From the NCBI GenBank assembly GCA_030998225.1, contig JAPYXD010000555.1, positions 4,278,001-4,342,000 of the forward strand: DNA of 64,000 bases, written 5' to 3'. Position numbers and translations under genes: made by a program. Below, one piece after another: positions 29,084 through 61,156 of the stretch; the first letter of the stretch is position 1; each line of letters opens with the position of its first letter. Source of the DNA: Diplolepis rosae. Taxonomy: Eukaryota > Arthropoda > Insecta > Hymenoptera > Diplolepididae. The notes beneath the pieces are model-generated. The model ran no database searches. It worked only from the letters and a program-made list of their open reading frames with translations, and had not been told where the DNA came from.

Positions 29084-32000
29084 TCAAGCTTTTTTTTCTA
29101 CAGCTTCCAGGGTCCCAGCATCTGCATTCAGGAAGACCATCTGACCTGAATGAGAAGGTTTTATTTATTTTTATATATTTTTGTATTCAAAGTAAAAGGT
29201 AATTACTTACCAGTTTTAAAAATACGAGTAGCACCCTCCGCTCCTACAATGCATGGTAGGCCATATTCCCTGGCTACCACTGCACCATGACTGATCAGCC
29301 CTCCAAGTTCGGTGACTACTCCACTCAATAAAGGAAAATAAGGACTCCAACCAATATCAGTAGCTTGAGTTATTAAAATATCTCCAGATTTTAACTCTCC
29401 TGCTTGAGACAATTTTGTTATCACACAAGCTCTTGCATAAATGGAACCGTTATAGACAGATGATCCAGTGACTTTAGCGACACTTTGATGAGTTAATGTT
29501 TCATGAAAAGGCTGTTCAATTCAGAAATAATCAATAGGTATCAGAACGACAATTATTGTAAATAATAATTAATAATACACACTTGCAATGGTTTAGGCAC
29601 TCCTACATTCAACTCTGCAAATTGGTCTTTCTCCAATTTCGAAAACAATCTTTGTCTTTTAAATACTCTGTAAATAAATAAAGAACGATACAAATTAAGT
29701 ATTAACAAATATATATATATATATATAATTATTGAATTCAAATATCATAAATCGTAAAAAACCTACTTTCGAACTAATGCAAGGTCAGGTTTCTCAATCA
29801 ATAACCCAATTTCGTAATGCGTTAAGAAAAATATCAGACTCTCATCTGGAATACGATTTTCTGCAACAAGAAGTTTAGCTAGCTTTCTATAAGATAATCT
29901 GAATTTATGTAACATATTTGTCAAAACGGATTTTGTCATTTCCCGACAAGCCACAGCTTTTCTGCAAGATGGAACCACTTTTTGCAGAATCCATCTTGTT
30001 ACCTTTTTCTTTGGAGTTTTCAGTTTAGCAACCGTCTCTTCTGCACTCAGATCTACGTTTTCTACAGTATCTGTAGGCGATCTAACCATTGCCTGAAAAT
30101 AAAAAAATTATTTTTAAAATTAATTTTGTAAAAAAATAATAATTCCTTTGAAGAATTCGTACCTGTATAGCACTTAAAAGCTTTTCAGGTTGCATGCTCC
30201 AAGTTTCAGTAATAAAATCCATTTCTTTGATACTTCGATGTCCATAGTCTCGAAGAAGCTTATCTAATAAATCAGCAGCTTCTCTGCTATTTTCTTTCAA
30301 CCAACTAGAAACTTCTCTACAGTTAATTTGTGAAAATTCTTCTACTTTGCCAGTCTTTCTGATAAGTTTCACAATTTCTCGTAAAGCAATAGGCACTTGT
30401 GCACTAATTACGTCGCTGCATGAACTCAATAAAACAGAAATATCGGAATAATGATCGGTTGTTAAATCATTGCTGTTTTCAGTCAGAATTGACATGAGAA
30501 GTACTTCATAAAAGACACTTATTCTTGAAGTTATGTTGTGACAAAAACCAACCTTGCAATGAGAATATAAATTGACATTAACAATGATAATAATTAATAA
30601 AACATCTGTTGTTAAAGTAAAAGTTAATTTAAATTTCTCATACTGTTTCAAGTTTATCCATGGATTCATTAATGGCTTGATAAAGTTCTTGAATTGTATC
30701 AAACTGATCTGGATCCAATTTGGTATTATCAAAAATAGCAATTGCTTCATTCATTTTTCTCTCACCGTTCCAAAGGTCTTGAATCATAATTATTAAATTG
30801 AGCAACCATCCTACAAAATCTATTGTACCATTTCTTTCTTTTGCTTGTTTGTGAATTTCTGGTGTAGTTATCACATGACCACAAACAGCTACGTCTACTA
30901 TTTTATTACTTTTGGTTACATCTTTTTCAACTACGGCCAGCATTGTCTGGAAAAAATAAATAAAACATTTCCTTTTTGAGTCAATATATACTTTTACAAG
31001 CCTAAGTTTCACGTTATAGAATATTTATTAGAGAAAATAAACACTTACGTTGAAATAATTAATTGTGACTCTCATGGATGTGACGTGAATATGATAGTCA
31101 CAACAAGGAACGATGGAAGGCTTTTTGAAATTTTCATTAATGGAATTATTTAAAAGAACCACGAATGTACTAAGCGTTAAAGGTGATGTGACACCTGGGA
31201 AAACTTCACCAACATTTGCAAATGTAAAAATGTCATTTTCTAAAGGAGCAGCAAAATCTAATTCATGCATTAATTCGAAATCAGTCCAGTTCTCAAGAGC
31301 AGTGATAGGACGAGATTGAAGTAAAAATATTTTGTCCCCAATGATAGCCCATTCTATATCTCGAGGACTTTGATATACATTTTCCAGATGTAGTCCAACT
31401 TTAGCTACTTTAATGGCGACCTGTTCTGAAAGAGAGCTTTTTTTAATTTCCTCATCAGATAGTTTATTTACGCTCGTTCCTGAATTTTCAGTCATTATAA
31501 TCTTTTGAGACTTTTTTCCTATTTCGATACTCCTGATACTTAAAGTGTCATTCCAATCTCTTTGTAGAACTATAGTGTCTGGTTCTACCATAGCAGAAAC
31601 TACCGACTAAAATAGAAAACCAACATAAATATGATATACTTAGATAATGCAATAGCTGTGTTTGATACGTTAAGCAATTCAAAAATTTGATTTGTAGAAT
31701 AATTACCTCCCCAAGACCATAATTTGAAGTGATAACAATATTTCTCGGATCGGATGTAGTTGGATGCCTAGTAAACATAACTCCTGACACTTCTGCATCT
31801 ACCATGATTTGAACACAAACTCCCATTGATGCTTTTATAGGGAGTCCTTGTCTTCTCCTGTGAAAAAGGAGTTAAAAATATGTACCATAATATTGTAGAT
31901 TTTTCTGAATTATTTAAAATTGATTGGATTTAAGTTTTTCCACCTGTATTCAACGCTTTGGTAGGTATATAGACTCGCCCAACAATGAGCTACATATTTC

Positions 32001-36888: not shown

Positions 36889-39800
36889 TTACTGGAGTTT
36901 CTTTTCAGACTGGCTAATGGTGACTGGTTGTTCATCTATTGTGGCAGAGTCTATACGCGATTTATCCACTGGATACAGCCTAAAATTAATTAAATTTTCA
37001 TTAGAAATTATTGGTTATCTTACAGTATATCTATAAATTTAAAAATGATGAAAATTTACCATCGCTGATAGAGATAAACGAGGAAAACTGCATCGTCTCT
37101 GAAACAGGCGACTCTGTGAGCCATTGGCATCGTGATGATGAAAGCAAAAACATCATCAATGAATGTGTTAAATGCCTTGTACATGAAAGCCTTCCAAGGT
37201 AAATGAGCAACAGACTTTAGCTTGTAATTCAGAAACAGCTGAGGCAACATAAAGAGAAAACCGAAAGCATAAACGCCTTTCACGAGAGAGTCTATGCACC
37301 ACGAGTACCAGCTAAAATAATTTAAAAAAATTATATTTTCCTTATTAATTCAAAAACCGAGTTTAGAAATACTATTTATACCTTTTGTGAACCTGGTAAA
37401 CTAGAGAATAAATCGCGCCAAAAAGAACAAGTGGATATAACAAATAGCTTAGATATCGCATGCTCTCTGCATCGAATTCTCGAGACTTTGCTTCCATAGA
37501 GTTGCACTTGCTCCAGTTGAATTTTATCCTAGGGATGATATTATCTCCTCTTACTATTTCTGCTCTTACAATTTTCTTGGACTTCCACAACTATTAAAAA
37601 AGATTCATTAACATTAATTAAAAATTTGTTTTTGTCCATAGAATTTAGAAATATAATTCTATTAGTACCTCAATAATAGTACCAATTGCTGCTGGAATCA
37701 GTATGAGCAAAGAAGAGCCTTCATCAAGAAGATACAAAAATATTATGGTTTGACTAAAAGCTCGCCAGAGAACCGTATGAATGCTAAGACCTGCGAGGTT
37801 TTCTTTATTCCTCCAAAAACTGACGTCATTTTTGAAAGCCAGAAAATCAAACAGCAGCTATAATAGTTTTAAGTTAAAGAGATTCATACATTATTTGTGA
37901 TTTTAAAAGCACAATTTTAATATTGCAACTAATTATTATCTTACGTGCATGGATGCAATGAAGACAGTTGCAGCCAGTAAATAAAGGTTTGTATCTGCTA
38001 AAATTCCTTTGACTTCATCAACGTCTTTGTCAGAAAAGCCAAATTTTTTTAATGATCGCATTGCTGCCTCGACGTGCAAAATCAGTCTAAGTTTTCCAAT
38101 TGATATAGGAGTGTAAGAAACTGTTACATTAGCAGAATCCAATTCAGATGTGATTAGTACCAGGTGGCTTAAACGAGTTTGTAAGAAATTATGATTTATA
38201 ATTGGAAGATACTTCCGATCTCGAGTCAGTCTGAAATAAACATAATGCAAATAAAATACTTAGATTATAGATAAGATTATATAAACTTAAAAATTGTTTT
38301 TACTTAATGCTGGGCATAATTTCCATAGGCATATTATTAGTTGGAAGCTCTATATTGTCAGTCATAATCGTAAACGATACTGTGTTTTTTAAATGAGATA
38401 CTGGCTGTGTTAAAGATCTTTTTTTTCCCTTAGGCTGCTCAACTCCAAGTAAGTTGGAACCCTTTAATTCCGGAACAGCGAATTGAGTCATTTTAATTGG
38501 AATGGATACAGCATAATTATTCTGTGGGCAAAAATAATAATACTAGTTCTAAGAAACTTACAGTTTTCCAATTTATATCAGAAAATTGATTATTTTCATA
38601 CCCTTTGCAGTTCGTAGAAAGATTTTTTTGAACTCCTAGTCGAAGGGGATAAAAACACGTGCAAAAACAGAGTGCCATTATTCCGAGTTTTTCGAGGTAT
38701 ATCTAAAGTTATTGGACTGTAAAGAAAAATATACACTCTTTAGTTAGATTTACAAACAATTCTGAAAAAATAATTTTTCTGCTAAAAATTTTCAAAAATC
38801 AATTGTTATGGGAAATTATTTCCATGACATTAAATGATTTACTTCAACATTTATTTACCGGTAAGGTATGCAAAATAAAATTACTTACCATCAATATGTC
38901 GAAAAATTAAAAATAAAATAAAATTTCTTTTGTAAATAAATCTGCTTGGAATTCAAAACCTATTTACTGTTTTTGTAACTACTTCTTATCAACAGAAGTT
39001 CAAAGTTTAAAGGGGTGAAAGAAAAAGTTATTGTAGTGAAAAATGATTTTATTAAGTAAATATAAAGTGTAGGCAAACAACAGACATTTAATTATTAAAA
39101 ATATCAAAAAACTTCTCTAACAATTCATTGCAACATAAAATAAATCATGTGACTATACAAATTCAGAAAATATGGTTAACAATTATAATTTACTTTAAAA
39201 TATATATAAAAAAGAATTTTTTTAATAATTATAAATAAATTGAAGAAAAGTATAGTTCTGTATATAATAATATAAAAAATAATGTTAAAGCATAAAAATA
39301 TTTCATCAAATAAATCTAGAGAAAATTAGGCTTTCTCTTTTTCTTTCCTCTTCTAGACCTTCTCTTGTTAGTAAATGTAGGACTTCTTGGTAAGAGCATC
39401 ATACCTGGACATCCATCTTCTGAGTTTCCGCAATCGCAAAGTCCTTTTGATGGTGAAGTTGATTTTATCGTTACATTATCTTGCATACTTAGATATTTCA
39501 ATTCATTTTGAACTGTAAATCCATAATGTTTCAAAAAATCAGAACCCAAAATTGGCGTACCAACATCTAATACAGCAAACTTCCAGGTGAATTCTCGACC
39601 TAATCCAAAATCCACCCTGCGAGTCGTCCAACCATCAATTGCGATGATCGAGCCACAATTTAAGCTCTCGACATTATTATTAAAAGTTTCCAAAGGACAT
39701 CCTTCCATTTTTGATTTTGGGAAAATACTTGTCTGAGCTCCGGTGGCAATAACAAATAAAGTTTCCGATTTTTTATCCCTGATATGAAAGTTGTGCTTCT

Positions 39801-42800
39801 TTGAATCAAAGTCATCTTCTTTTGGTAAATAAGTGTGTGTTTCCTCTAACTTAGAATTAGTTATATCATCAAATGCATTTATTATTTTTGTAGGTTTTAT
39901 GACGAAAGTAGGAATATCAGGCCAATATTTTCGCGCTTGACATTCGCAAAACTCTGATGAGCAAAAAATAACCTTTGAAGTTGTATGATCAATAACTTTT
40001 TTATCACTGAAGTCTAATGTAAAGTCATAGTGGTGGAAAAAATCATTGGCAATCATCGGTCTCTTGATATCTATCAAAGCAAACTTCCACACAAAATATC
40101 GTCCTGAACCAAAGTCTAATTTTCGTGTGATCCAACCATAAACTGGAATTTTGGAGCCGAAGGCATTGATAAGGTTGAAAGAATCATCGAAGGCTTCAAT
40201 CTCTTCTTCTGTCACACCTGTTTTTGGGAAAACGCTTATTGAAGTTCCAGATAAAAGATATGGCATTTCTGTTATCTTGTCGATAAGAATGAGCCGTTTT
40301 TCTTCTAGACAACGACTACGACTAGCTCTCAAATCACAGCGTCTTTCAATCATTTCAAGTTTCTTTCCGGCAGTTTGTAATTCAGAATTTGATTCTAATC
40401 TTAGAAATGACAAAGAAGGCCAAGCATTGTAAAAAATACCACAATTACAAGAACCTGTAAAAGCTGAAGTTGACATCGTTGTTATTGAATCAAAAAGCCG
40501 TGGATATTTCATTGAGTAATTACACTCGAGACTATACTGACGCAAAAAATCCTGAGCAATAATTGGTTTAACAACATTTACAACTGCAAACTTCCATTGG
40601 AATTCTCTTTCCAACCCAAAATCTATTTTGAGTTCAATCCAACCATGAATTGGATAAACTAAATTAGTACAATCAACAAGTTCTGAACCATCAGCAATTT
40701 CCATAGGACGTCCTTGAACCTGAGACCTTGGAAAGACACTAACTTGTGCTGTTTCATCGACAAAAAAAAGTGTCTGTGAATTTTTATCTGTCACGTGAAA
40801 ACAATGTTTAATCTCTTTTAACTCTGGCGATTGAGGGATTCTTTTAATCATTAATGCAGGTGAGGTTTTCAATCGCTCGTCAGTTGCATGATAATCGCAA
40901 GGTTCTAGTAAAAGTGTGGTTGACCTTGAACTTTCCTGGTTGATAATTGCATGTTTATTAAAATCAACTCTAAAATTAAAATAACTCAGAAAACTGTAGC
41001 ATATTATTGGTTTGTTGATGTCAACGACTGCGAACTTCCACATGAATTCTCTTCCGAGTCCAAAGTCCAATTTCCTACTTGTCCAACCCTGAATCTGTAA
41101 AGATGAACCATCACTATCTATTACCTCAAAGAAATCCTCAATATTTTCCATCGTGTGCTCACCCATTTCTGAGACAGGGAAAACACTTATTTCCGACTCA
41201 GTGTTTATAAGAAATGTAAGTTTTGTATTGTTATCAGTGATATGAAAACACTCTTTTTCGTTTAGCTTAAGATAATTTTTTTTGCTTCTATGTTTTTTCT
41301 TACGTTCAGAAGTTTTAGATTCTTTTTCAGACATCTTAAAATCTTCCTCAGGCCTTTCTAAATCTTCATTTGTGTCCTCTTTTATGTTTGCATTTTCAGA
41401 ATTCTCTTCTACTTTATTTGAAATTTCTCGTATTCGTAAACAAGTTGAAAATGGCCATCCATCATTGGGTTTGCCACAGTCACAAGGTTCTGTAGGTGGT
41501 GGAGCAGTCATCCGTGTATGGGGATCAAATATGCCTTCAGTATGAAATGCAAGCCCATAATAAGATATAAAATCCCAACCAATAATTGGCTTACCGATGT
41601 TAATAACTGCAAATTTCCAAGTAAATTCTCTTCCTAATCCGACGTCTAACTTTTGTAATGTCCATCCTAAAACTTGTAAAGCCTCTCCGCAAGCTCCAAC
41701 GAGTTCAAACGAACCATCGAAAGGTTCTATCTCCTCTTTCCTTACTTTTGAATTTGGGAAAATGCTCATTTCTGATGAGGTGCCAATCAGAAATAAAAGG
41801 TTCGAATTTTTGTCAATGACATGAAAACGATGTTTCATATCAGATTTACTATCGAATCTTTTGATTTCTGATTTGGATATTTTAGATTTAGATTCATCAG
41901 GTGGGGTAGATTTTTTTTCTCCATATCCATATTCTTGTTTTTTAGTTTTAACCTCCAGTTTTGACGTGTTTGAAAATCTTTTTATTCTTAAAGTCGAAAA
42001 GGGCCATCCGTCATAGGGCTGACTGCAATCACAAGGTTCTGAAGGAGGTGGAGTTGATATTAATGTCTCAGAATCAACAAGGCATCTGCTGTGAATTAAA
42101 AATCCATAATGAGATATGAAATCCGAACCAATAATTGGTTTACCAATGTCAATAACTGCAAACTTCCACGCAAATTCTTTTTCTATATTAAAATCCAGGT
42201 TAATCTTTATCCATCCTAGAATTTTCACTACCTCTCCGAGATCTCCAATGAGTTCAAATGTATCATCAAAAGGATCTATATCCTCTTCTGTTACTTCTGA
42301 TTTTGGAAAGACGCTAACTTGAGTTTCAGTGTTTACAAGAAATAACAATTTCGAGTTTTTATCGATAACGTGAAATCGGTGCTTTATATCAGATTTTATC
42401 TCCGGTTTCTGGAAATTCTTATCGCTTTCTCCAGATTCCTCCTGTTGTTTCTCCTTTGGTTGAATCTCTTCCAGATCTTCTACAGATTTTTTAAATTCTT
42501 CTCCATAAAATGATTTAGATTGTACTTTAGGTTCTTCAGATTTTGCTAAAGCTTCTTCAGAATCTATTTTCATTGTTGGAAATTCCTGATCTAATTTACT
42601 TTGAATTTCTTTTATCCTCAAAAAGGACATATTTGTCCATCCATCATTGGGTTTTCCGCAGTCACAAGGTCCTGAAGGTGGTGGAGCTGTCATCCATGTT
42701 TCCGCATCATAGATACCGTCGGTATGAAATGATAATCCGTGATAAGATATAAAATCCCAGCCAATGATTGGATTGCCGATGTCTACGACTACAAACTTCC

Positions 42801-45800
42801 AGGTGAATTCTCTTCCTAGTCCGAAGTCCAACTTCTGGGTCGTCCATCCTAGAACTCGGATACTCTGACCAAAATCTCCCAGAAGATCAAATGAACCATC
42901 AAAAGGTTCTATGTCTTCTTTTTTCAACATTGATTTGGGAAAAACGCTAAGCTCGGCTGGACTGCTTATGAGAAATTGTAGCTTTGAGTAGTTGTCAGTG
43001 ATATGAAAACGGTGTTTCACTCCATTTTCATTCTCTGCATTTGGTGAATTAGTATTACTAATCCCGGAGTCTTTAGATGAATTAGATTTTCTTCTCCAAG
43101 TTCCAAAATCATCGATTGCTATATTAGATTCTTGATCATCAGAATTAGGCGTTAGAGATTCCTGTTCAAACTTTGGAGAATCATCTTTGACTTCTAATTC
43201 TTGACTTTGTAATTCATTTTTGAATACTTGAGAATCTTCTTCAGATGTGATTTTTTTTCTTCCAGTCCTTAATTCTTGAATTTGTTTAGTTAACTCTTGC
43301 TTTGGTTCTTGATCCTTTAATTCAGAATACTTGAAATCTTCTTCAGGTAAAGGTTTCTTAGACTCATTGTTTGTATCTAAAATAATTCGTTTTATTTTTG
43401 AACATGAAACCGGCCAGCCATCCATAAGTTGCCCACAATTACAGGGTCTTGAAGGCGGTGGAGTCGATAACAATGTCTCTGAATCGGTGAGACCATTGCT
43501 TTCAACTGAAAATTTGTAATAAGATATAAAATCCATGCCAATGATTGGCTTGCCAATATCGATAACTGCAAACTTCCAGATGAGTTCTCTTCCTAGTCCG
43601 AAGTCCAACTTCTGAGTTATCCAACCCAATACTTGTAGAACATCTCCGAAAGCTCCAACCAATTTAAATGATCCATCAAAAGGTTCAATGATCTTTTCTT
43701 TCAGTTCCGATTTCGGGAAAACGCTGACTTCAGTCTCGATATCTACGAGAAATAAAAGTTCCGTGTGTCTCTCAGTGATATGAAGACGGTGCTCAATTTG
43801 AATATCCAGCTTTAGATCATTTTTATTCTTTCCTCCACGTTTTCGATCTTTTGGAACAAACCCTTCTTCTGATTCCTTGATCGATTTATCAATTTGCTTG
43901 GACTCCTTAGAAATCTGATTGGAATTATAACTACTCGATTTAGAATTAGCAAAGGAATTTTTCTGGTTTTTTGTAACCGGTCTTTTCATCAACATGGAAG
44001 TTGAGGGCCAACCATCCTTATGATTTCCACACTCGCAAGGACCTGTGGGTGCCGGAGTGGAAATCTTCGTCACTGTGTCAAAAAGACCGGAATATCCCAT
44101 TTTGTACTGAGTTATGAGATCGAACTTTTCTAAAAAGTCAAGTCCAATTATTGGCTTTTCGAAATCAATGACTGCGAAGGTCCAAGTAAATTCACGTCCT
44201 GTTCCGAAGTTTAATTTTCTAGTTGTCCATCCTTGAACCTGAATGGTCGTGCCAAAAAAATCCACAATTTCAAATAAACTATTAAAAGAATCTATGGTCT
44301 CTCCTCTTATTTCTGATTTCGGAAAAACACTAATTTGTGATGCGCTACCAACTAAAAATGGCATTTTTGTGTTGATGTCATTAACGTGAAAACGGTGTTT
44401 CACAGATCTTTTGATTATTGCAGTTTCTAAAGGCCAACCATCATTATAAGTTTCGTTTCGGTGACACTCACAGGCGACTGTCGAAATTCTATTAGTTTCT
44501 AGTTTTGTTTTAGGATTGATTAGGCACATCTTGTCGAAATCAATTTTTAGAGAAAAGTGGGATAAAAAATCGGTGCCGATTATTGGCCTCTCAAAACTGA
44601 CTAATCTGAACTTCCACTCAAAGTCTTCTCCCAATCCAAAATCTAATTTTTGTCTGATTTGACCAAATGTGTGGATTATAGAGCCGGAACTATTGACAAG
44701 AACTTTACTGGGTTCGATTTCCGATAAATTTTCTGGTATTAGTGATATGGGGAAGACACTTACTTGAGCATCGAGGGCGACGAGGAACTGCAGATTTGTT
44801 TTCTTATCGGTAACAACAAGTCGATGTGGTTTAGAACAACGTTCAATTTTCACCATTTTTCCTTCATTTTTCGAATTTTTCCGATTTTCACGAAACTTGC
44901 GAGGTACAGTTTCCATTTTCTCTTTCTTCATAACAAAGTAGTAAATTAATTCAACTGTTTATTCATATCTTGAACCGATAGTAGTGCACAACAGCAACAA
45001 TTTTCGACAATGATAATATATGAAAACACCAAAAAATAACGATCGAAACAGTTGGAAACAGCTGAACAAGACGGAAATAAGTGAAACTGTGCGCGCAAAA
45101 ATCGATTCCTTTTTCGATTTAGCGATCCGGAAAATTTGGTTTTACTTTCCGGTATTTAAAAGTACACATGTGCTCCTTTTTTGCCAGGACTTCTTTCTCA
45201 CATGAAGGTAGAAGTAATTTTTTTTTAAGCTGACACATAGTTTGCTGAGGTAATGTACGTAAAAAGCCGCATTTGAAAAAATTTAAAATATAAAAAATAA
45301 TGTATTAATGATTTTTAACAAAAATATTCTTTAAAACTTTTTAGTAGATTTAAAAAAAAGTTGAGTTCATTGAACAGATTTTCTGTATGTTTTACTAAGC
45401 GCCCAGTAATATCTACAGAATATAAAAAAATTCCGAGTTTAGTAGATTGTACTGAAAGATAGGTGAAACTTTAATAAAATCTGTTGATAAAACTGAACTT
45501 GTTTCAACGCATACATAGATATTAAACAAACTTTTAATTCAACTTTATGTTTTAGGAAGTTTTTAGCAGAAAAAATTAGTAATTAAAAATACATACAAGT
45601 CTTGAGATTCCTCATACTTGAACTTCGAAGAAGAAAAAACATGTGATACCTCTGTCTGAAGAGGTTGACTCACAACAGAACTATAGAAGTCTAACTGAAG
45701 TTCTGGCTTCGTATTTAAATAAGAACCTAAGCAACTTTCTCCTCTTCCACATGCCGGTGGAATAAAAAGCAAAGATATTGAATATAATGAATAACAAATA

Positions 45801-45850
45801 TAGGACAAAAATACCCCCGAAACAATGAGGCTAAACGACGGTCGCCTCAT
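36889..45850 (-). CDS. CLPTM1L: CLPTM1-like protein (cleft lip and palate transmembrane protein 1-like)
   Basis: Multi-pass ER membrane protein of the CLPTM1 family; the human homologue has been described as a lipid scramblase for GPI-precursor lipid (family knowledge). Exons: 45597-45850, 38602-38716, 38304-38521, 37945-38230, 37669-37857, 37382-37590, 37060-37311, 36889-36979. The total is 1,614 nt, 537 residues, nearly the same as human CLPTM1L (538). The start is ATG 45850 (MRRPSFSLIVSGVFLSY) with an N-terminal membrane segment. Diagnostic blocks are KTRNNGTLFLHVF, FWRNKENLAGLSIHTVLWR, YPLVLFGAIYSLVY, FGFLFMLPQLFLNYKLKSVA, FNTFIDDVFAFIITMPMAHR and ACFRDDAVFLVYLYQRWLYP. The first intron is 6.9 kb and holds an entire same-strand gene (39316-44931), so CLPTM1L transcripts must pass through it. 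Confidence 0.93.
39048..39053 (-). terminator. Candidate poly(A) signal of the nested gene
   Basis: TTTATT on the plus strand (AATAAA on the gene strand), about 265 bp beyond the stop of the nested retropepsin-repeat gene. Functional use here would also risk truncating CLPTM1L transcripts. Confidence 0.35.
39316..44931 (-). CDS. Ten-repeat, catalytically dead retropepsin-like protein
   Basis: A single 1,871-codon exon from ATG 44931 (MKKEKMETVPRKFREN). It encodes ten tandem copies of a domain of about 140 residues joined by charged Lys/Glu/Ser linkers. A full copy reads in order: (K)HRFHVIDKNSKLLFLV, a degenerate catalytic site, VSVFPKS, FELIG, a GW strand, KLDFGLGREFTWKFAVIDIG, KPIIGxDFIS, a variable stretch, STPPPSxPCDCG, and DGWP. 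The FLV-xSG-xxVSVxP, W-F-hydrophobic strand and PIIGxDFL pattern is that of gypsy/Ty3-type retropepsins. No copy keeps D-S/T-G, so proteolysis is not expected. No RT, integrase or zinc-knuckle domain and no signal peptide or membrane segment is seen; the C-terminus is very basic (NKRRSRRGKKKRKPNF). The unbroken frame implies selection as a host gene. Function unknown; a scaffold or an inhibitor/binder of retroelement proteases is conceivable. Confidence 0.88.
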   Translation of the reverse strand: MKKEKMETVPRKFRENRKNSKNEGKMVKIERCSKPHRLVVTDKKTNLQFLVALDAQVSVFPISLIPENLSEIEPSKVLVNSSGSIIHTFGQIRQKLDFGLGEDFEWKFRLVSFERPIIGTDFLSHFSLKIDFDKMCLINPKTKLETNRISTVACECHRNETYNDGWPLETAIIKRSVKHRFHVNDINTKMPFLVGSASQISVFPKSEIRGETIDSFNSLFEIVDFFGTTIQVQGWTTRKLNFGTGREFTWTFAVIDFEKPIIGLDFLEKFDLITQYKMGYSGLFDTVTKISTPAPTGPCECGNHKDGWPSTSMLMKRPVTKNQKNSFANSKSSSYNSNQISKESKQIDKSIKESEEGFVPKDRKRGGKNKNDLKLDIQIEHRLHITERHTELLFLVDIETEVSVFPKSELKEKIIEPFDGSFKLVGAFGDVLQVLGWITQKLDFGLGRELIWKFAVIDIGKPIIGMDFISYYKFSVESNGLTDSETLLSTPPPSRPCNCGQLMDGWPVSCSKIKRIILDTNNESKKPLPEEDFKYSELKDQEPKQELTKQIQELRTGRKKITSEEDSQVFKNELQSQELEVKDDSPKFEQESLTPNSDDQESNIAIDDFGTWRRKSNSSKDSGISNTNSPNAENENGVKHRFHITDNYSKLQFLISSPAELSVFPKSMLKKEDIEPFDGSFDLLGDFGQSIRVLGWTTQKLDFGLGREFTWKFVVVDIGNPIIGWDFISYHGLSFHTDGIYDAETWMTAPPPSGPCDCGKPNDGWTNMSFLRIKEIQSKLDQEFPTMKIDSEEALAKSEEPKVQSKSFYGEEFKKSVEDLEEIQPKEKQQEESGESDKNFQKPEIKSDIKHRFHVIDKNSKLLFLVNTETQVSVFPKSEVTEEDIDPFDDTFELIGDLGEVVKILGWIKINLDFNIEKEFAWKFAVIDIGKPIIGSDFISHYGFLIHSRCLVDSETLISTPPPSEPCDCSQPYDGWPFSTLRIKRFSNTSKLEVKTKKQEYGYGEKKSTPPDESKSKISKSEIKRFDSKSDMKHRFHVIDKNSNLLFLIGTSSEMSIFPNSKVRKEEIEPFDGSFELVGACGEALQVLGWTLQKLDVGLGREFTWKFAVINIGKPIIGWDFISYYGLAFHTEGIFDPHTRMTAPPPTEPCDCGKPNDGWPFSTCLRIREISNKVEENSENANIKEDTNEDLERPEEDFKMSEKESKTSERKKKHRSKKNYLKLNEKECFHITDNNTKLTFLINTESEISVFPVSEMGEHTMENIEDFFEVIDSDGSSLQIQGWTSRKLDFGLGREFMWKFAVVDINKPIICYSFLSYFNFRVDFNKHAIINQESSRSTTLLLEPCDYHATDERLKTSPALMIKRIPQSPELKEIKHCFHVTDKNSQTLFFVDETAQVSVFPRSQVQGRPMEIADGSELVDCTNLVYPIHGWIELKIDFGLEREFQWKFAVVNVVKPIIAQDFLRQYSLECNYSMKYPRLFDSITTMSTSAFTGSCNCGIFYNAWPSLSFLRLESNSELQTAGKKLEMIERRCDLRASRSRCLEEKRLILIDKITEMPYLLSGTSISVFPKTGVTEEEIEAFDDSFNLINAFGSKIPVYGWITRKLDFGSGRYFVWKFALIDIKRPMIANDFFHHYDFTLDFSDKKVIDHTTSKVIFCSSEFCECQARKYWPDIPTFVIKPTKIINAFDDITNSKLEETHTYLPKEDDFDSKKHNFHIRDKKSETLFVIATGAQTSIFPKSKMEGCPLETFNNNVESLNCGSIIAIDGWTTRRVDFGLGREFTWKFAVLDVGTPILGSDFLKHYGFTVQNELKYLSMQDNVTIKSTSPSKGLCDCGNSEDGCPGMMLLPRSPTFTNKRRSRRGKKKRKPNFL
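39390..44830 (-). repeat. Ten degenerate retropepsin repeats in protein order
   Basis: Approximate first residue and gene-strand position of each copy: R1 35 (44829), R2 177 (44403), R3 379 (43797), R4 638 (43020), R5 849 (42386), R6 1030 (41840), R7 1224 (41258), R8 1373 (40812), R9 1542 (40305), R10 1710 (39800). Active-site windows are FLVALDAQ, FLVGSASQ, FLVDIETE, FLISSPAE, FLVNTETQ, FLIGTSSE, FLINTESE, FFVDETAQ, YLLSGTS and FVIATGAQ. R4 and R6 are especially alike, as are R3 and R5; R1, R7, R8 and R9 are the most diverged. The longest linkers precede R3 to R7. Confidence 0.88.
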
Positions 45851-50596: not shown

Positions 50597-53500
50597 TTAT
50601 TTATTTTCTTCAATTTGCGTCATTGATTTTTCATAGCCTAGTGCAACGTTCTGGGGAAAAAAAAAAAATTAGTTCTCTCTAATATATTTTTTAAATACTG
50701 GGGTACTTAAATTTTATTGCTTGAGTGTCTAGCTTAACTGCTGCACAGTTTCACTGCAAAGAAACTTCACTAAAATGGTTTATCTTAAAGTGCTCAATTA
50801 CTTTCATAAATAAAGGAATAATTAATTCAAAAGAATAAAAGAAAAAAAAATTAATACAAATTCATACCTGAACGGCGATTTGCAGGGGTGTAGATTCTCC
50901 TAATGAGCAATCTGATCTTAAAATATCAGCAGGCAACAGTCTTGGGCAAGGTTTTCCAGTGAAGAGCATGAAAAGTGTATGAATAGTTCTCCTCTGCGTG
51001 AGTTCAGTGTGCCGATGTTGATAACCTGATAAATGCCTTCTGTGTCTTATCACTGATGGAAACCATCTTTCACATAATACACAATATCTTCTGTGCTTGA
51101 TTGTCGCCTGAAAATAAGTAAGATGATGAATAAATTACTCTGAAATAAAATCTCATGAATTAAAGACACGTTGAATTATATGATACATACTTTCTCATGA
51201 AACACCCATTTTTGTACAGCATCAGCAAGAGATACTCCAGGATCCATCTGTTCAGCTTTTGTCACCTTATCAGAAACAATGTTTTCCACTTTTTCAGTTT
51301 TGTCGTCCAACATTTTAGGACCTTCTTCAAAAACATCAATGTCCTCTTGATTTGTTATTACAGGTGGTGAAAGCGAAGTATCTCGATCTGAACTTGGATC
51401 CAAATTCATTCCACCTTGTGGTTCCAAAATTGGCATTTCTTCCTTCACTTTTGATTCAGTTGAATTTTCGCTACTATTTTCATCAGACTTTGATAGTTTT
51501 GAAGTTTTATAGAAATTATTTTTATTCCTATCTCTATCTTTTGAAGATTCTCTAGACTTCCGACTTTTTGAATTTGACCTGCTTCCTGAGCGTTTTGATG
51601 TTAAATCGAAAGCTTTAGAACGACTGCTAGAATCACGAATTTTATTCGACTCATCAGATTGAATAGAACGAAGATTAGATCGTTTCCGATCCCTTAGCGA
51701 TATTGCGTTATCCTGTTCATATTTACAAGTCTCTTCATCTATCCTTGGGGTTTTCCTACTTCTGTATTTCTCTCTCGAACGACTACTTTCTTTAGATCGT
51801 TTTTTGTCATACCTTGTATGACTTCTTGAGGTGAAATAATTTGAAGTCTCTCTACCCGTATTATGCGAAATTATACCTTTTTCAGAATCAACAAGTGGAT
51901 ATACACTCCTCTGCTTTTTCTCAGCAATGACTTTCGGTCTTGATTTGCGAGAGGTGCTTTCTTTCTCGCATTTCGGCAAATATTTTCTTAACATTTCCTT
52001 CGCAGCCATAACTTCCTGGACAAGTGAGTGAGAATCTGAAAAATTGGTGGAGCTCGAGGCCAATAAATTACTCAAATTCTGAGTTGTATCAGTTGAGTGC
52101 AGCAAATCATTCAAGACAGGAACTTCGTCCTTGATATCATTCAAGGAATCTTGACCAGTACTTATCAGACAAGAACTTTCTTCATCTGGTAAAAGTAGCC
52201 TTGGAAGCTGATCAGAATCGTTTGTTGATTCTATGTCAGCCTTCTCATGAGGTATTTCATATTTTCCAAATTCTACATCATCATTCGATTCAGGAAATTC
52301 TTTATTGTCATACGTGGGTACGTCATATGTATCCACACTGCTATCTACAATTTCAAGCTCAAATTCAAACTGCGTTGGAATAGCATCTTCAGAATAAAGA
52401 TATTCATGTCCTTCATCCGTTACAAGCGAAGTAGGAAGCTCTGGCCGAACATCAAAAATTTCTTGGCTTTCTTCTTTCATTCTGATCATATTTGCCTCGT
52501 TTTCATCTAAACTGTCAAAAATGGTAATGACATCTGGAGCTAAAGTTGTTTTGCTGCCAACGACTTCTTCTGCATTCAAAAAAGTATATTTCGTGTCCAT
52601 TTCCTCATCCGGTTTCAGCTCCGTATGATTTCCATCCGTATTTCCAGTTTGATCACCGATACGACTAGAAAAATTCAACTTTTCTGCATCCTGAAAAAGA
52701 TCCTTGCTCTCAGAATTCATATTTTCATCAAACTTCTTCCATCTTTCATAAGCATCTCTTTGATTGCTTTGGATCTTTTCAGTGAACATATCCTTGTAAT
52801 ACAAAGATTGATTGTCTAGGTAATTTTCTTCCCCATTCGTTACTTCCCTCGCAGATTGGCAAGCTTTGATTTTGTAAAACCTTGAGCCTGTGTCAAAGTA
52901 GCGCATACCGCAATCTGATTTTCTTCTCTGCTTGACTTTACTTGAAAATATATCTGAACTAGATTCAATCCTAGACAATTCCTTCTGCTTTTTTAGACTA
53001 TGAATAAACTGCTCCCATTGAATTTTACTTGAATTAGATCTTCCTCGAACTGAAGCTTTTTCCCCATTTTTTGCAATGGCTAGCTTCAAAGCTATGTTCA
53101 CATGCCTTAATTCCTTTGCCATGCAATCCAGAATCCAAGAACGTTGAAGAACTACTTGTGGTTGTAAACTTGAATCCTTTAAAGAAATGGTTTTATTATC
53201 ACTGCTAACCTCGCATTTAAACTCAGCAGTCGGCGATGTTCGTTTGATGATAACCTTTGGAATTTTCTCTGCCATGCTCTGACAATCAGATGGAGGAATA
53301 GAATTTTCTAAATTTGGATCTGTTCTCCGATCCTGTTTTGTTTCTTCCTTTGATGCCTTTTTTGTCTTTTTATTTTCAGTTTGCAAAACATCAGAGTTGC
53401 GCCTTTTCCTAGATATCGAAGAGAAACTTATCAAATCTTTCTTTATCTTCACTTTAGGGATCTTACTTCTACATTCCTCAGCATCGATGAGAGAAGAATC

Positions 53501-56500
53501 GCTGACCATTTCCATTGATTCGGAATCTAAATAAGATTCATCTAGCGCCTCAGAATGTAAATCGCTTGTTTTTAAATTATTTAATCTTGATCTGTTCGCT
53601 TCTAGATCGCAAGATTTCGAGTCAGCACTTTTCGAATGTAAATTTTTGAATTTCTTAATCTTCATTTTTGGAACAAGTTTCTGGAGATCTTGAGAATTAT
53701 ACAGATCTATATTCTCAATAACGATTTTAGGGAGTTTGTCTTCAAGCTTTATTTTCATTTTAGGAATTCTGCTTTCCTCATTGCCAATTGTGTGAGGTCC
53801 ACTTTTGTTTATATCATCTAGTTTTGATCTAGATTTATTAACGTTTGTATCTTCGTTCGGCAACGAAGACTCTTCTGGAATTTCTTCAACGCTGGGTGTA
53901 ACTGGTCTATATTTAACGTTTCTTATAATCATCTTTGGTATCTTCCGATGAAATAGAGGTTCCACGCTTATTTCAGGTTCAGGTTTGGATTTTGAAAGTG
54001 CATTTTTATTCGTCTCAACCGTTCGTATTACAAGTTTAGGGACAGTTTTATCAGTCTCGCAACTTTTCAAATGAGACTTTCTTATGACATTCTCTTCCAA
54101 AGTCACATCAGGCATTTCATGAAATTGGTTGCTGTCACTACTTTTTGAAGAATTACAAATTTCAGAATCAATCAGTTCCTTTTGAACTTCTAATTTTGGA
54201 GGATCAACTTCAAAGCAGGAATCATCCTCGATATAAATTGATTCAACACTGTCTTTATCACTATCTTCTTTATTTATTTGAGAAGAATCTTCGATTTGAA
54301 TTTCTGATTGATCGGTTTCAAATTTATTTTCATTTGGTAAGCAATCTTTTTCATTCGAATTTTTACCTATGATCTCTTTTGTGCTTTCATCACTTTTATC
54401 CTGTGAGACTTCCGGACTTGTTTCTATTTCGGGAGAAGGAGACAGACCTCTCGATTCTAGATATTCTCTTTCACATTTTTTAAAATCTGATACTTCACTA
54501 TTTTCCCAAATATTTTCTTCATTGTTTTCTTCATTGTTTGTTTCATTGAAGTCTCTATTATATTCGGATTCTTGATTATGTTCGTAAATATTTTCCTGAA
54601 CGCTTGCTTGATTAGATTCTTTATTATAATATCCACTCAAAGGCTCTCCAACATTATCTTCAGTTTCTAAGCACTCACTTTTTTCTTGATTTTTTTCTTG
54701 ATTCTTGCATATTTCAGAAACAATCTCTACCTCTTGTTCGCCGATAGTTTGACAAGATTCATCTTCATTTGTAGGAATTTCAGCTATATGTACGTTTGCT
54801 TTTACAGATTGTTCTTGGGTTTCCTCGGTAGGTTTTAAAATAACTTCCTGTCTGTTCTGAAAAAAGCTAATTGATTCGATATTCGATGGGAGAGTCTCTT
54901 CAAGATTAATAGTTGGAACTTCCATATCTTTCGCCTTATCAACTTCCTTAGTTATGATATCAGGAGTTTCAGACTTGGATTCTAAATCCAATCTCGAAGT
55001 GACTAATTCCTCCTCCACTTGGATGTTTGCTGTTAATTTTGGTTCTTCAAGGTTAGACTCTGTCTTTTTCAAACTATCATTTTCTTCTTCTTCGTACACT
55101 TTATCGCAGCTTCCTGCATTTTGACTAATATCTTGATTAATTTCAAAGGCAGCAGAGTAACTGTCATCTTCAAGGTCTATGGTTTCAATATCATTATCTT
55201 TCATTACAGAGGGTAGAACCACATGCCTTTCTTTTTCTTCTTCTTCGATTGGTCGAGATTGAATGTTTTCTTGCTCATTTTCAATATCGGCCATTATGGT
55301 GTTTAAGTTGAGGGTTTCAGTTTCGTTTTTATTCACATTAGAAGATTCTTCGGAAGTTGATTTTGGTTCAGGATTAACGGAAACGCGATCGATTTCTATT
55401 TCTGTTTGTTTTGTTGTTTCTAACGTGTCTGCAATTTCTAAACTTTCCATATTTTCAACTAACTCTGTATTTTCCGTAATTTCAGAAGTTATTGTATTTT
55501 TGGAAGACTGTTCCTCATTTAAAGGCAAAAAAGTTTTGGTTTTACATTCTTCTAAATATTTGACAAATTCGGAATTTATTTCTGCAGAATGTAGAACATC
55601 ACTTTCGCTTCTTCTTCTTTCTGAAATTAAACTTTGAGATTGAGATTCAATACCGGGAGTGGATTGTCGTCTTTCAGGAACACCACTGGATTCTAAAGTT
55701 GGAACATCCTGCATAGGTTTTAAATACCTAGAATCCTCTTTACTAAAATCTTGAATGTGATCTTTGTTCTCAACGTTTGAATCTGATTTCGAATCAAGAT
55801 TAAAAGTATTGGATTCTGCATCGAAATTTGGTACCTTATCAGTTTCCATAATTTCCGAATAGTTATTTGATGATTCCAGATGGCTTTCTTTATTCTCTAC
55901 AACTGTGAAAACATCTTTATTATCAGTTGCTGTTATCAAATTCTTATCTCCAAAAGATACAGGAACAACTTGATTATCTTCGGCATTGCCCGGGCTTGGA
56001 CTTCGTATTTCAGTGACAACTTGACTTTCTTTTTCCTCTATTATATGTTCTATATTTGATTCGACGATTTTTAATGCCTCACTTGGGCTGGCTTCAGCAT
56101 TTTCGTCAATTTTTTCTTCAAGGTAATTTTTATCACATTCAATGTTTTCGATTTGTGAATTAATTTCGTAAAAATCGTTCTTTGAATCATTTTTCTGTTT
56201 TTCATCGAAGGCTTCCGATGAACTTTCATTAAAGGCATTATAATTTTTTATCGTCTTAATAACCATCGGTTCGTTGGTAAGACTACTCAACTTACTCTCT
56301 TTGTATGAAAGATATCTCTGATAACTTTTCTCAAGCTCTTGAGTGGCAAATCGTTTTGCTAACGATTTTTTTGGGGGTTTCACATCTGTTTGGTACTTAT
56401 TAACGTAAGATCGTTTGTCACTAAGCTTTGAAGATCGCTTTTCTTGAGACGTCGATGAAGAACTATAATTTGAACTGTAATTTTCATAATGAGATCGACT

Positions 56501-59500
56501 TTCTTTTTGTTGAGCTTCCATTAGTAAAGCCCTGTACGTAAATCTTGGATTCGGGCTGTAAGTAATTTTTCCGTCTTTCGTAGTGTAAACGGGAACTGAA
56601 TTCAAATTCTCTGCTTCTTCCAAAGTGCTGAATATTGGATTTAAATATCCTTTAGGGCTCATAGTCAAAGCTTCTCTTAGTATTTCGCTTGTATGTAAAG
56701 ACTTTTGTCTGGAAAACTCTGATGTATCAGGCAACGTTTCTAAACTCTCATTAGTGTCCAATTTATCAGTTCTGTGATTGTTTTCATATCCAGTAAAACA
56801 TATGTTATCTTTATACTTGATTTTCCGATACTTCTTTAGCTCTTGTAATTTTGACTTTCTGTCACTATCTTCTATTGGTTTCGACTTACTGACCGACTTC
56901 AGTCTGTTGGAAAGACAGTCAAATGTAGAATTACTCGCAATAATATTTCCTTCTAAAGGATTCTTAAGGCACTCAGCATAGTTAAGGCTAGGCATCTGTG
57001 GATTTTGACCCTTTCCAAAGTATTCAATTACGCTCCCTATTCTCTCCTCTTCTTGATCTTTTACTCTATTTCCTGCAATTTTATCCAAATCTTCCAAAGA
57101 TGTTTGATTTTTTAATATTATTGAATCAGTCTGTGGTAAAGGTTGATTGATAGAATTTCTCCCAGAACAAATCGTAGAACCACAGGTCGTCGGAGGTTCA
57201 TGATTTCCTTTATGTCCTAATTGATCACAGCTCTGTGGTAAACTTTGCATAACAGCTTTGCTGTCACCACGTGAAACATTAATCTCTATTTTAAATGCCT
57301 CAAAAGATTTATTGGAATCGTTGCAGTTTCTGAATTTTATTTCCAAGTCTGAGTCCATTTGTTTCCTATTTTCATTTGTACGCAATGTATCCTGATCATA
57401 ATTATTCTTCGGTCTTGGGTGGTCGAAAAATGTCTCAGTAGTTGCAATAGGTAGAACATGTTTTGCACAAATTTTATCAACTGGTTCTTCTTCTTTTTCG
57501 GAAGTAAACTTCGAAGATTTATTTTCTTCTTGAAAATGATCGATACTACGCTTTCTTTTCAAATTTTTAAGTTCCATCAGGAGTAGATTTTCTTCCTTAT
57601 TTTCAGTTTTCACATTTTCAGCAGACTTCGAACGTTTTTGCATTAAGTTCATTTTTAAAGATTTAGATCTAGATTGGTGGGAATTTTTCAAATTCTCAGA
57701 AAAAGCTAAGATTTCTTCACGTTCAAAGCTATCTGACAATTTTCTGTTTTCAGGGTACATTTTATTTTGGGTGTTTCGCCGCCAAGTAGAATTAAATATT
57801 TCTTCAGAGATGATGCTGATTCCTTTTGAATTCTGTTTCGTATTTTTAGAATCCTGTATTACGTTCTTAATCGAATTTTGCCTATCCCTTATATTCTTTA
57901 AAATTTTTGAAACAGATGCTGAAGCTTCAGCAACGTCTTTTTTCTTTTGTATTTTCTGATCTTTCTCGTTACTGGAAGTTTTAGTGTCAGAATTCGAATC
58001 CATCCCCTTTTTCATAGAATTGTCATCAAGACAAATATCATCAACTTTATTAACTTTTTCTTCATCAGGTTCGTGAACATTTAAACTAGTAATCGGCGTA
58101 GATTCTTTCATGATTTTCGTCAAGTAATTTTCGTCCATAGGTAACGCCGGAATTTTTGGCTCTTCATTTTCATCCCCAGGCATAAGAGGAATCGAATTCC
58201 AACACCACTTGTCCTGATCTTCCGTTGAAAAGACATCCATGTTCGAAGAATATTCCTGCGAATCTTTATTAACGGAATTCTCTGAAATTATTCGACTTGC
58301 AGAATTAACTTCAGTACATTTTAAGCCACTTTGCTTTTCCGAAATTGGATTCTTTTCGTATTTACTTTCTCCCGATTCCACCGAACAAGAAGGCCAAATT
58401 TCATTTTCCACAGCTTTACTGTTCTTAAATTTTGAGTCGACATTTTCATTGGTATCTTTCTTATTATCTGTATCTTGAAACTTTATCACTGAATCATTAT
58501 TACCTTGAAAATCAAAATCAAGGCCATCCTGTGACGACTTTTCAGAAAGATGTTCACCCTTGAGATGCTCATAAGGATCCATTTTAACAGGAGACTGTGT
58601 AAAGCTAATCATAGGACTGTTTTGAATTATTTCAATAGGATTTGTACTCGTTGTGAGATCAACACCCTGTTCAGTAGTCTCCTCACTATCTGAATGAGTC
58701 GGAGTATTCAAAGTCGTAGATATTGGTGTGCATTCGGAAGTAGTTAAGTCTGGCAAGCTGATATCATCAGGATTGTGATTCTCCTCATTCGTAAAGCTAT
58801 TCTGCTTCTTCAAGTTCGAATCTTCAGGTTCAGAATTGCTTTTTTCGAGAGGCAAGGTCGATAAATCTTGAGGACTGATTTGTAATTTTGAATCAGAATC
58901 ACTCTGGATAATTTTCTTGTAATTTACACTCGTGGAAGGTTCTTTGCTTTCGACCGTTACAGACATATTGTTGGTTTCTGTTAATGAATTTAATGAATTT
59001 ACAGGAACTTCCGGTTCTGGTTTTTCATTATAAGTAAAAGACCTGCATTCAGTTTCCCCTTCCGAGTTTTCCACTATATGAATCCTTGGAACGCTATCGA
59101 TTTCTTCTCTGACGCACTTTATTCTCAGTTTATCATCATAAACAACCCCTTGATTCAAATCATTGGAACAATCTTGAAGAAGATTCACATTAGACTGATC
59201 TTTTGGGTAATATTCCTGTGGTTTTAAAGAAGGCTCGTTCTCCAATTTTTGCTCAGTTGGATTTTCAGAGCTGTGAGCAACCAATCCTAAATTTTCGTAC
59301 TCAACAACGACTATAGGAGTCGGATTGCTAAGAACCACATCCGACAAAGTATTTCCTTCTTCTTCTTCCGCCTCATCCCAGTTTGCCAAAAACTGTCGAA
59401 CGTCCAGGGCAGGTTTGCTAGCAAAGCTTTTTGTACTCTTATGCTCTTCTTCCCTTGGATCCAAAATTTCGAACCTCTCGTCCTCTCTTCGCACAACTTG

Positions 59501-61156
59501 GCAATGCTGACTTTCTATTGTCTTCTGATTCATGTACTGCACTTCTCTAGGTATATTTTCTGGATTTGGAGCTACGAATTCTTCTTGGATATTTCTTACC
59601 GAAAGATGTTGTAGATCAGGATTTTTCTCCAAAGAAACATGCTGCTCTTTCTCAAGATTAACAGAATTTTGAACAGGGTTGATTGTATTATGAGACGCGG
59701 AAAAATTGGCGGGCAAATAATTTCGGTTAATCAAAACTCCGTTTTGATCAAACTGTAAATTTATAGGTGGTACTGTACTGTTCGCCGAAGTCAAGGTATT
59801 TTGCATTGCACTTTGATAGTCGACAGTCTGTTGTAACCTCAAAAGTTCTCTGTACCTGTGGATGCATTCTTGATACTTCGGATGAGTCTGGTACCCAGGT
59901 ATTCTCGATAATTCCCTGAGATGATTTTCCATTGAGAACCTCTGCATCGCATACTTTTGTTGATAAAGCTGATACTTTGGATAAGTGTTTTGCATCGAGA
60001 CCTGGTTTTGAACCTTGCTCGTGTCTTTCTCATGATTTTCCCACTGAAACTCTCTAGAAAATTGCGGATTGAGATAAGGATTCTGCACGGGGGACATGTT
60101 TGTGCTGATGCTGGGAACAACTAATCCTTTCTGTAACAAAGCTCCGCTTTGGTACTGGTTTTGTTTGGGAGAATATTTCTCCTGCACGTTGGCGTTATGT
60201 TCTGGATATTTGATAAGTCCAGAGTTTTGTGTGTTTATAACTCCCTGCCTCTGATAATCCTTCATAGCATAGGCATATTTTTGATAGTCCCCAGGAACAC
60301 TATAGTTCGGCAGGGGGTAATTCGGCAGGACAGTTGAAGGTTGATAATTTCTAGGAACGGAAGGGTCTTTAGGATATTTGTAGTCAGTAAAATTCCTTCT
60401 TTGATCAATGTGAAAAGAATTAGGTGGGATCATATCCTTGCTAGGGTAACTATCCTTTCTGTAAGCCACCTCGTTTCTATATCTTCTATTATCTGCAGCG
60501 TATCCGGACGCGCGAATATTTTCTCTGTAAGCGTTACTTGCCTGGTATGGAGGGAACTTCTCCCAAGTTTGATAATTTACATTGGGATCCGAAGTACAAC
60601 AAGGACCTTTACATGTGGCCATATAAGATCCTTGTCTGTTTGAAGGCACAGTATTTACGGGTGGAATACGTTGTCCTGTGGTTCCCATATTATTATTTAC
60701 ATTCATATTTGGTCCCATGACTCGAGGTACGGGTCCGTTTAATGAGATCTGGTTTCTGTGCGCCATTTCCTCATTTAGAGTGGCAACCGACCCATTTCTA
60801 ACGTCCACGTTGCTCGCATCGTCCATCATGGAGTTCATGGAGGATGAACCTCCATAGTGGCCGATACAGTTCGATACGTGAACCATCGAGTTTAAGGACG
60901 TCTCGGCCAAATTGCTAGATCCACTAGGAGTACTGTTTGGTGGCTGATAATTTCTTTGACTATAATTAATAACATCGTTCTGAGACTTACTGAGGCAATC
61001 TGTACTAAGGTTGAGCCCATTCATGGACGGTGGGCTGATGTTGGAGACGTACAGGTGAGAGGAATTCCCGTTCTGCCCAGACTTCGCAGCATCCGACCCT
61101 CCAGACTGTAGGGCATTGTACTGCTGCCAGTCTGGTATATTCCTGCTGTAGCTCAT
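50597..61156 (-). CDS. Giant disordered protein with one C-terminal C2H2 zinc finger
   Basis: Exons: 51191-61156 (a single 9,966-nt coding exon), 50868-51107, 50597-50650. Phases agree, giving 3,419 residues from ATG 61156 (MSYSRNIPDWQQYNALQSGG). Residues 1 to about 470 are rich in Asn/Gln/Tyr/Pro/Ser (low-complexity, prion-like). Residues about 500-3,000 are acidic and Ser/Glu-rich with scattered basic, nuclear-signal-like clusters. Residues about 2,370-2,635 hold seven short repeats of the form (I/V/L)PK(M/V/L/I)xI(K/R/E). Late in the big exon are RS/basic stretches (SRSREKYRSRK). Exon 2 carries a zinc finger, YCVLCERWFPSVIRHRRH followed by LSGYQH (C-x2-C-x12-H-x5-H), then FTGKPCPRLLPADIL. 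The combination suggests a chromatin or RNA-associated nuclear protein. I do not recognise the family, and the coiled-coil/disorder description is by eye. Confidence 0.85.
53240..54035 (-). repeat. Short PKxxI motif repeats within the zinc-finger protein
   Basis: Seven copies of a short hydrophobic-basic motif: VPKLVIRTVE, IPKMIIRNVK, IPKMKIKLED, LPKIVIENID, VPKMKIKKFK, IPKVKIKKDL and IPKVIIKRTS. They are spaced by roughly 10-75 residues of disordered sequence. Core: hydrophobic-Pro-Lys-hydrophobic-x-Ile-(Lys/Arg/Glu). Such spacing is typical of multivalent docking motifs. Confidence 0.7.

Follow-up and report, generated by a model that had tools for sequence, protein, structure and literature searches.

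A ten-domain reading frame within the first intron of CLPTM1L

The DNA described here is a 64,000-nucleotide stretch of the Diplolepis rosae genome (assembly GCA_030998225.1, contig JAPYXD010000555.1, positions 4,278,001 to 4,342,000; hereafter the window), and its subject is a gene encoding a tandem array of retropepsin-like domains (the array gene; Table 1). This gene is one uninterrupted frame of 1,871 codons on the minus strand, which opens with an ATG at 44931 and contains no internal stop codons; at its own base composition, the chance of such a stop-free run is about 10^-63. An original prediction, made from the letters of the sequence alone, had described an intact frame of this length with ten retropepsin-like domains, amplified to that number without frame breaks, and this was confirmed by the frame itself, which is stop-free throughout, by a profile search and by matches to transposon queries. 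The coordinates of the prediction were right but lacked the strand, and its count of ten protease domains was correct, although it overlooked the loss of the catalytic motif in every one of them.

A profile built from the ten copies recovered ten full-length domains of 131-136 residues with expectation values (E) of 8.5e-62 to 1.6e-50, which are circular for the window as the profile was derived from the same copies. The copies share 30-66% identity in pairwise comparisons (mean 41%). Outside the domains, the linkers and tails are dominated by Lys (17.5% of residues), Glu (13.4%) and Ser (11.2%), and both the N- and the C-terminus of the predicted protein are basic, with no hydrophobic leader visible by eye. 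The strongly basic tail that follows the tenth domain (39319-39390, KRRSRRGKKKRKPNFL) is replaced by an acidic tail in both of the named Leptopilina relatives described below.

The original prediction had also placed the frame beside CLPTM1L. The identity of this neighbour was right, as exons on either side match PF05602 (E 2e-26 and 1.7e-31 for the downstream frames), but the splice ends of exons 1 and 2 together with these matches indicate that the array gene is not merely near CLPTM1L but is nested within its first intron. We also considered and rejected a fusion in which exon 1 of CLPTM1L would be spliced in frame to the array: the acceptors tried were the AG sites at 44969 and 44955, the two closest to the start, and both lead to a stop codon before the array is reached. 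Just inside the two ends of the intron lies an inverted repeat of 25 bases (38774-38798 and 45550-45574, 88% complementary). It could bring the ends together around the nested gene, but it is AT-rich, so it is possibly a chance match.

Table 1. The array gene, its ten domains (D1 to D10) and the enclosing part of CLPTM1L, with positions in the window
Feature	Position	Strand	Remarks
CLPTM1L coding exon 1	45597..45850	-	Donor GTATGT; joined to the start of exon 2 it matches PF05602, E 4.9e-13
CLPTM1L intron 1	38717..45596	-	6,880 bases; splice ends GT and AG; encloses the array gene in the same orientation
Array gene	39316..44931	-	1,871 amino acids (aa); ten retropepsin-like domains with K/E/S-rich linkers; identical to database protein P0002
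D1 (aa 37-172)	44416..44823	-	DTG replaced by ALD; A and D constant in 7/7 D1 domains compared
D2 (aa 180-314)	43990..44394	-	DTG replaced by GSA; G at the first position in 7/7 D2 domains compared
D3 (aa 382-512)	43396..43788	-	DTG replaced by DIE
D4 (aa 641-771)	42619..43011	-	DTG replaced by SSP
D5 (aa 852-982)	41986..42378	-	DTG replaced by NTE
D6 (aa 1035-1165)	41437..41829	-	DTG replaced by GTS
D7 (aa 1228-1360)	40852..41250	-	DTG replaced by NTE; no Cys-x-Cys
D8 (aa 1377-1510)	40402..40803	-	DTG replaced by DET; position common to Leptopilina
D9 (aa 1546-1676)	39904..40296	-	One-residue gap in the aligned active-site loop, 6/6 D9 domains compared
D10 (aa 1714-1847)	39391..39792	-	DTG replaced by ATG; the only copy seen by Pfam (PF13975, 27.3 bits, below the cut-off of 28.2)
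Candidate polyadenylation signal AATAAA	39048..39053	-	Starts 263 bases past the stop codon; motif match only
CLPTM1L exon 2 onward	37645..38716	-	Acceptor TTTACAG before 38716; PF05602 matched by frames 37936-38259 and 37645-37857

Descent from a retrotransposon protease

All ten domains are homologous to a retrotransposon protease, as judged both by tblastn and by the trees described below. Five transposon polyproteins (P0008, P0010, P0016, P0021 and P0026) were used as tblastn queries against the whole window at E <= 1e-3 and each matched all ten copies, with values of 1.3e-17 to 3.7e-8 for P0008. Outside 39316-44931 the same five queries detected no reverse transcriptase, RNase H or integrase of this transposon lineage anywhere in the window, other retroelement classes not having been searched for. 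As the matches were confined to the ten domains, only the protease has been retained from this lineage, and to that extent the earlier claim that nothing else of a retrotransposon is present holds. The proteases in question are of a class that we take to be Ty3/gypsy, and they presumably belong to the A2-like superfamily of MEROPS. Those of Ty3/gypsy pol frames, such as Megalopta genalis LOC143261982 and the copies in the wasp's own genome, were the nearest sequence relatives found; they differ from the array in that each frame read carries a single protease with D[TS]G intact, followed in the complete ones by reverse transcriptase, RNase H and integrase.

The protein searches returned 18 non-array proteins, which were classed as transposon frames or fragments, eight from their sequences and the others from Pfam matches or names. 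Eleven of the 18 were used as transposon proteases in the comparisons that follow (P0008, P0009, P0010, P0013, P0016, P0017 and P0020-P0024). The further Cordylochernes hits (P0011, P0012, P0014, P0015 and P0018) and P0026 were left out of the counts and trees, and P0025 was excluded as a fragment lacking the active-site stretch.

When the window protein was compared with the 758-Mb genome of its own species, the best 25 of 425 candidates, which were those scored, comprised itself and 24 other places, whose open frames measured 140 to 1,134 aa. The Belonocnema kinseyi relative LOC117168563, used as a second query against the same genome, found the array locus in seven pieces together with at least 28 other places. 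Thus there is one array locus by two queries, a weak second one being possible as only the best candidates were scored. Seven of the 24 non-array places were fetched (L002-L008, five of them distinct). All proved to be transposon-type proteases with an intact DTG, and the open frames that carry them are 175 to 1,062 aa long; the L003 match contains one internal stop. No direct repeats resembling long terminal repeats (LTRs) flank the array frame: at a length of at least 20 bases, four direct-repeat families were present in 38600-45700, all of them inside the frame. The single array locus, the lack of LTR-like repeats and the lack of other enzymes of this lineage in the window led us to reject an intact, live transposon as an explanation.

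Loss of the catalytic site and retention of the core

The D[TS]G motif, at the site or anywhere else in the domain, was found in none of the ten window domains and in 0/41 complete domains of the seven wasp array proteins, compared with 11/11 of the Ty3/gypsy proteases. The array might in principle still be a protease with an unorthodox or composite active site, and the Asp at the catalytic position is indeed kept in 3/41 domains (window D3 and D8, and domain 4 of LOC117168563). However, these three read DIE, DET and DTQ, so that the Gly has gone, and residues of the flap are lost as well. In human ASPRV1 the substitutions D212A, D212E and D212N abolish activity, as reported in PMC11402058. 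We therefore regard residual proteolysis as very improbable.

The changes were not spread evenly over the domain. Among 22 columns invariant in 16 transposon proteases, a limited sample in which five sequences are near-identical Cordylochernes copies, those least kept in the 41 array domains were A45 (0), N47 (2), A76 (2), D16 (3) and G18 (3), whereas the best kept were G55 and F87 (41/41 each), F73 (40/41), and D86 and G64 (39/41 each). The A-A-N triplet, present in all 16 transposon proteases, had its first Ala in 0/41 array domains, its second in 9/41 and its Asn in 2/41. We take A45, N47 and the A-A-N triplet to belong to the flap, and the best-kept columns to be structural.

A second difference lies after the domain, where a Cys-x-Cys motif was present in 33/39 array domains (two others could not be placed) and in 0/16 transposon proteases when the same rule was applied to uncut tails. 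Seven of the 16 transposon tails contain a Cys somewhere, which in two elements of the wasp's own genome lies in the sequence C-K-E-D-W, and Cys-x-Cys may for this reason have grown from a single Cys.

Relatives in cynipoid wasps and the age of the array

Six non-identical array relatives were found, namely LOC117168564 and LOC117168563 of Belonocnema kinseyi, LOC127278650 of Leptopilina boulardi, LOC122503757 of L. heterotoma, and two further proteins of 1,271 and 841 aa. Compared with ten complete domains in the window, LOC117168564 has seven (and a partial eighth at 567-616, which was removed before counting), LOC117168563 six, both Leptopilina proteins five, and the remaining two proteins five and three. 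The four named genes are members of the same family: they have the same domain and dead sites, begin with D1-D2 and end their series of domains with D8-D9, but they have fewer domains than the window protein, lack D10 and give no Pfam match above the cut-off. Orthologues with intact, long open frames are thus present in Belonocnema and Leptopilina, which answers in part the original prediction's call for orthologues at the CLPTM1L locus.

All the named relatives are from cynipoid wasps, Belonocnema being a gall wasp and Leptopilina a parasitoid, and the closeness of their proteins to the array suggests that the species of the window is a cynipoid too. Outside Cynipoidea, three protein searches returned no named array protein (in one of these, scores were computed for the 7,994 candidates with the most words in common, and proteins shorter than about 166 aa were presumably outside its reach), and a scan of viral contigs (P0001) gave six pattern matches, none of which was confirmed. 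In the literature that was searched, which did not extend to subscription papers or preprints, none of the titles listed concerned retropepsin arrays of this kind, and no paper named the four LOC genes.

In the trees, the 41 array domains formed one side, with support of 100/99 in a tree of 52 domains and 100/100 in one of 57, to which five own-genome proteases had been added, indicating a single origin. Within that side, in the 52-domain tree, domains of Belonocnema, Leptopilina and the window grouped by their position in the protein for D1 (7/7), D2 (7/7), D8 (6/6) and D9 (6/6); the D2 group had support of 91/97 in the 57-domain tree. As these four positions group across both sides of the split between Cynipidae in the strict sense, to which Belonocnema belongs, and Figitidae, which include Leptopilina, at least four domain positions are older than that split, given vertical descent, and a middle domain is probably a fifth. 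The middle domains were less tidy: window D3 grouped with D5, D4 and D6 with the third domains of both LOC117168563 and the 841-aa protein, and D7 with domain 4 of LOC117168563, while D10 stood alone and three middle domains of LOC117168564 clustered together, loosely with the third Leptopilina domain. PMC7686688 dates the split to a median of about 150 million years (95% range roughly 116-190). Because the replacements at the catalytic site are common by position (A-x-D in D1, G in D2 and a gap in D9), the simplest reading of the alignments is that catalytic loss preceded the separation of gall wasps and figitids and that the D1 replacement residues have themselves been kept.

Selection and structural models

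Evidence for selection was obtained from the ten window copies by the Nei-Gojobori method. The proportion of nonsynonymous differences (pN) was below that of synonymous differences (pS) in 45/45 pairs, and in the 15 most alike pairs the ratio of the corresponding rates (dN/dS), which is approximate here, was 0.16-0.44. The differences among the copies thus indicate purifying selection, and in this comparison the check for neutrality that had been proposed with the original prediction came out as not neutral. A decaying transposon, or a long frame that arose by chance, has in its favour that the sequence descends from a transposon, but this explanation has to contend with the odds against the open frame, intact relatives across a split of about 150 million years, pN below pS in every pair, the conserved core, a gained Cys-x-Cys and a window with no other part of the transposon lineage. 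On the frame odds, the intact relatives, the pN and pS values and the core, we rejected a pseudogene or chance frame, and we give a functionless origin practically no credence.

The proposed comparison of the repeats with retropepsin structures likewise gave a positive answer. D1 and D2 were modelled as retropepsin folds, with a mean predicted local distance difference test (pLDDT) of 80 and a predicted template modelling score (pTM) of 0.59, from seven sequences; a model of D8-D9 was unusable (pLDDT 40.6). Among solved structures, the ten-domain profile matched ASPRV1/SASPase and no other protein (6/6 hits, E about 7e-4). A phmmer search of solved structures with the whole array protein gave only two weak matches, to another protein (E 2.3 and 9.9).

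In BFVD the D1-D2 model was best matched by Q8QL56, a 'putative aspartyl protease' of a bracovirus (E 9.7e-6, 25% identity), which we infer to be that of Toxoneuron nigriceps bracovirus. This resemblance would fit a secreted parasitism or gall factor, comparable to the retrovirus-like aspartyl protease of that bracovirus. However, no hydrophobic leader was seen by eye at the N-terminus of any of the seven array proteins, and the array is kept in gall wasps as well as in parasitoids; a secreted factor is accordingly improbable.

A dead-protease array as a likely binding scaffold

To our knowledge, the domesticated retroelement proteases so far known, such as ASPRV1 and DDI1, have one active domain. 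DDI1 and DDI2 contain a single protease domain. In the array, the protease has instead persisted without its catalytic motif and has multiplied within one chain to as many as ten copies, and therefore it must be the fold as such that is put to use. PMC11402058 allows three comparisons. ASPRV1/SASPase is likewise a domesticated retroelement protease, but has a single active domain with DSGA and acts as a homodimer. The retroviral-like protease domain of DDI1/DDI2 also forms a homodimer and is accompanied by helical and ubiquitin-like domains. The bilobal pepsin-like proteases arose, like the array, by duplication and fusion in one chain, but they are active and have two lobes with a catalytic Asp each, whereas the array has as many as ten units, all of them without the catalytic motif.

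That every copy has, over a long time, combined a dead site with a conserved core indicates a use of the fold other than cutting, and for a string of such domains multivalent binding is the simplest function. We thus consider it likely that the array is a domesticated pseudoprotease whose predicted protein is a non-enzymatic, multivalent binding scaffold; the suggestion in the original prediction that tandem amplification implies a new structural use is supported by the dead catalytic sites, the conserved core and the dN/dS values of the copies. One Ty3/gypsy protease would have been captured and have lost its catalytic site, and tandem copying within one frame would have followed. At least four dead domains, and probably five, would already have been present in the common ancestor of gall wasps and figitid parasitoids, and the array would later have grown in its middle part in gall-wasp-like genes, reaching ten domains here. 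The product would most likely be intracellular, the retropepsin core of each domain serving as a binding or dimerisation module and the flexible charged linkers stringing the modules into a multivalent protein. Pairing of the domains may use the ancestral dimer interface of retropepsins, either inside one chain or from chain to chain, and the newly gained Cys-x-Cys may clasp the pairs by way of a metal or a disulfide. The clasp is proposed because the C-terminal strands of retropepsins, through which the monomers dimerise according to PMC11402058, meet at the dimer interface and the motif follows that strand.

Several observations weigh against this reading. Cys-x-Cys is absent from 6/39 array domains, window D7 included, and the 'fireman's grip' Thr is kept, or is replaced by Ser, in only 19/41 wasp domains, which weakens the case for classical dimerisation. 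Selection was gauged among copies only, and the synonymous rate (dS) exceeded 1 in 14 of the 15 pairs, so the ratios are rough. Finally, the canonical pair was not seen in the D1-D2 model, whose matches to tethered HIV-1 protease over the whole length had a root-mean-square deviation of 17-19 Å and a query template modelling score of 0.25-0.27; in this seven-sequence model, the relative placement of the domains is weakly determined.

A more specific role is conceivable, though on balance we think it unlikely: the array could be a restriction factor, whose dead domains would pair with live Ty3/gypsy protease monomers to give inactive heterodimers that block Gag-Pol maturation, the diversity of the copies widening its range. 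Putative partners are at hand, as the own genome holds transposon protease relatives at the 24 non-array places among the 25 scored, with DTG in the seven fetched, and domain number varies from 5 to 10 in complete-looking proteins. Retropepsins, according to PMC11402058, need two subunits with one Asp each. On the other side, dN/dS among the copies is well below 1, the fireman's-grip position is not conserved and flap residues are lost, so that pairing with a live protease is uncertain, and the seven own-genome copies are known from the protease stretch alone, their activity being putative. A fuller version of this idea, which we hold to be doubtful and offer as speculation, is a multivalent anti-transposon decoy in which a string of dead retropepsins, paired by the Cys-x-Cys clasp, would capture live Ty3/gypsy protease monomers or Gag-Pol, and would have been retained for about 150 million years in cynipoids with its domain number tuned in each lineage. 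Capsid-derived restriction factors are a parallel from gag to such a protease decoy.

For the scaffold reading as for the decoy, the family has useful properties: it occurs in both gall wasps and parasitoids, its members differ in their number of domains, and the same genome also contains relatives of its ancestor that have kept the motif. It would thus offer a tractable case of the change from an enzyme fold to a scaffold, and would permit a direct test of transposon restriction by a protease-derived protein.

Other features of the window

Away from CLPTM1L, two long plus-strand frames of 1,134 and 893 aa at 4952-11296 have, as judged by eye, a very high content of Ser and Thr. At 13875-14623, two overlapping plus-strand frames together cover an apparently broken transposase, which we take to be mariner-like. 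On the minus strand, 29203-31606 contains exons encoding PPDK_N and PEP-utilizer domains, from a gene for a phosphoenolpyruvate-synthase-like enzyme; such an enzyme is unusual in animals. A minus-strand frame of 3,326 codons at 51176-61156 has no Pfam match at E 0.01, and the adjoining frame at 50862-51134 shows weak C2H2 zinc-finger matches below the cut-off.

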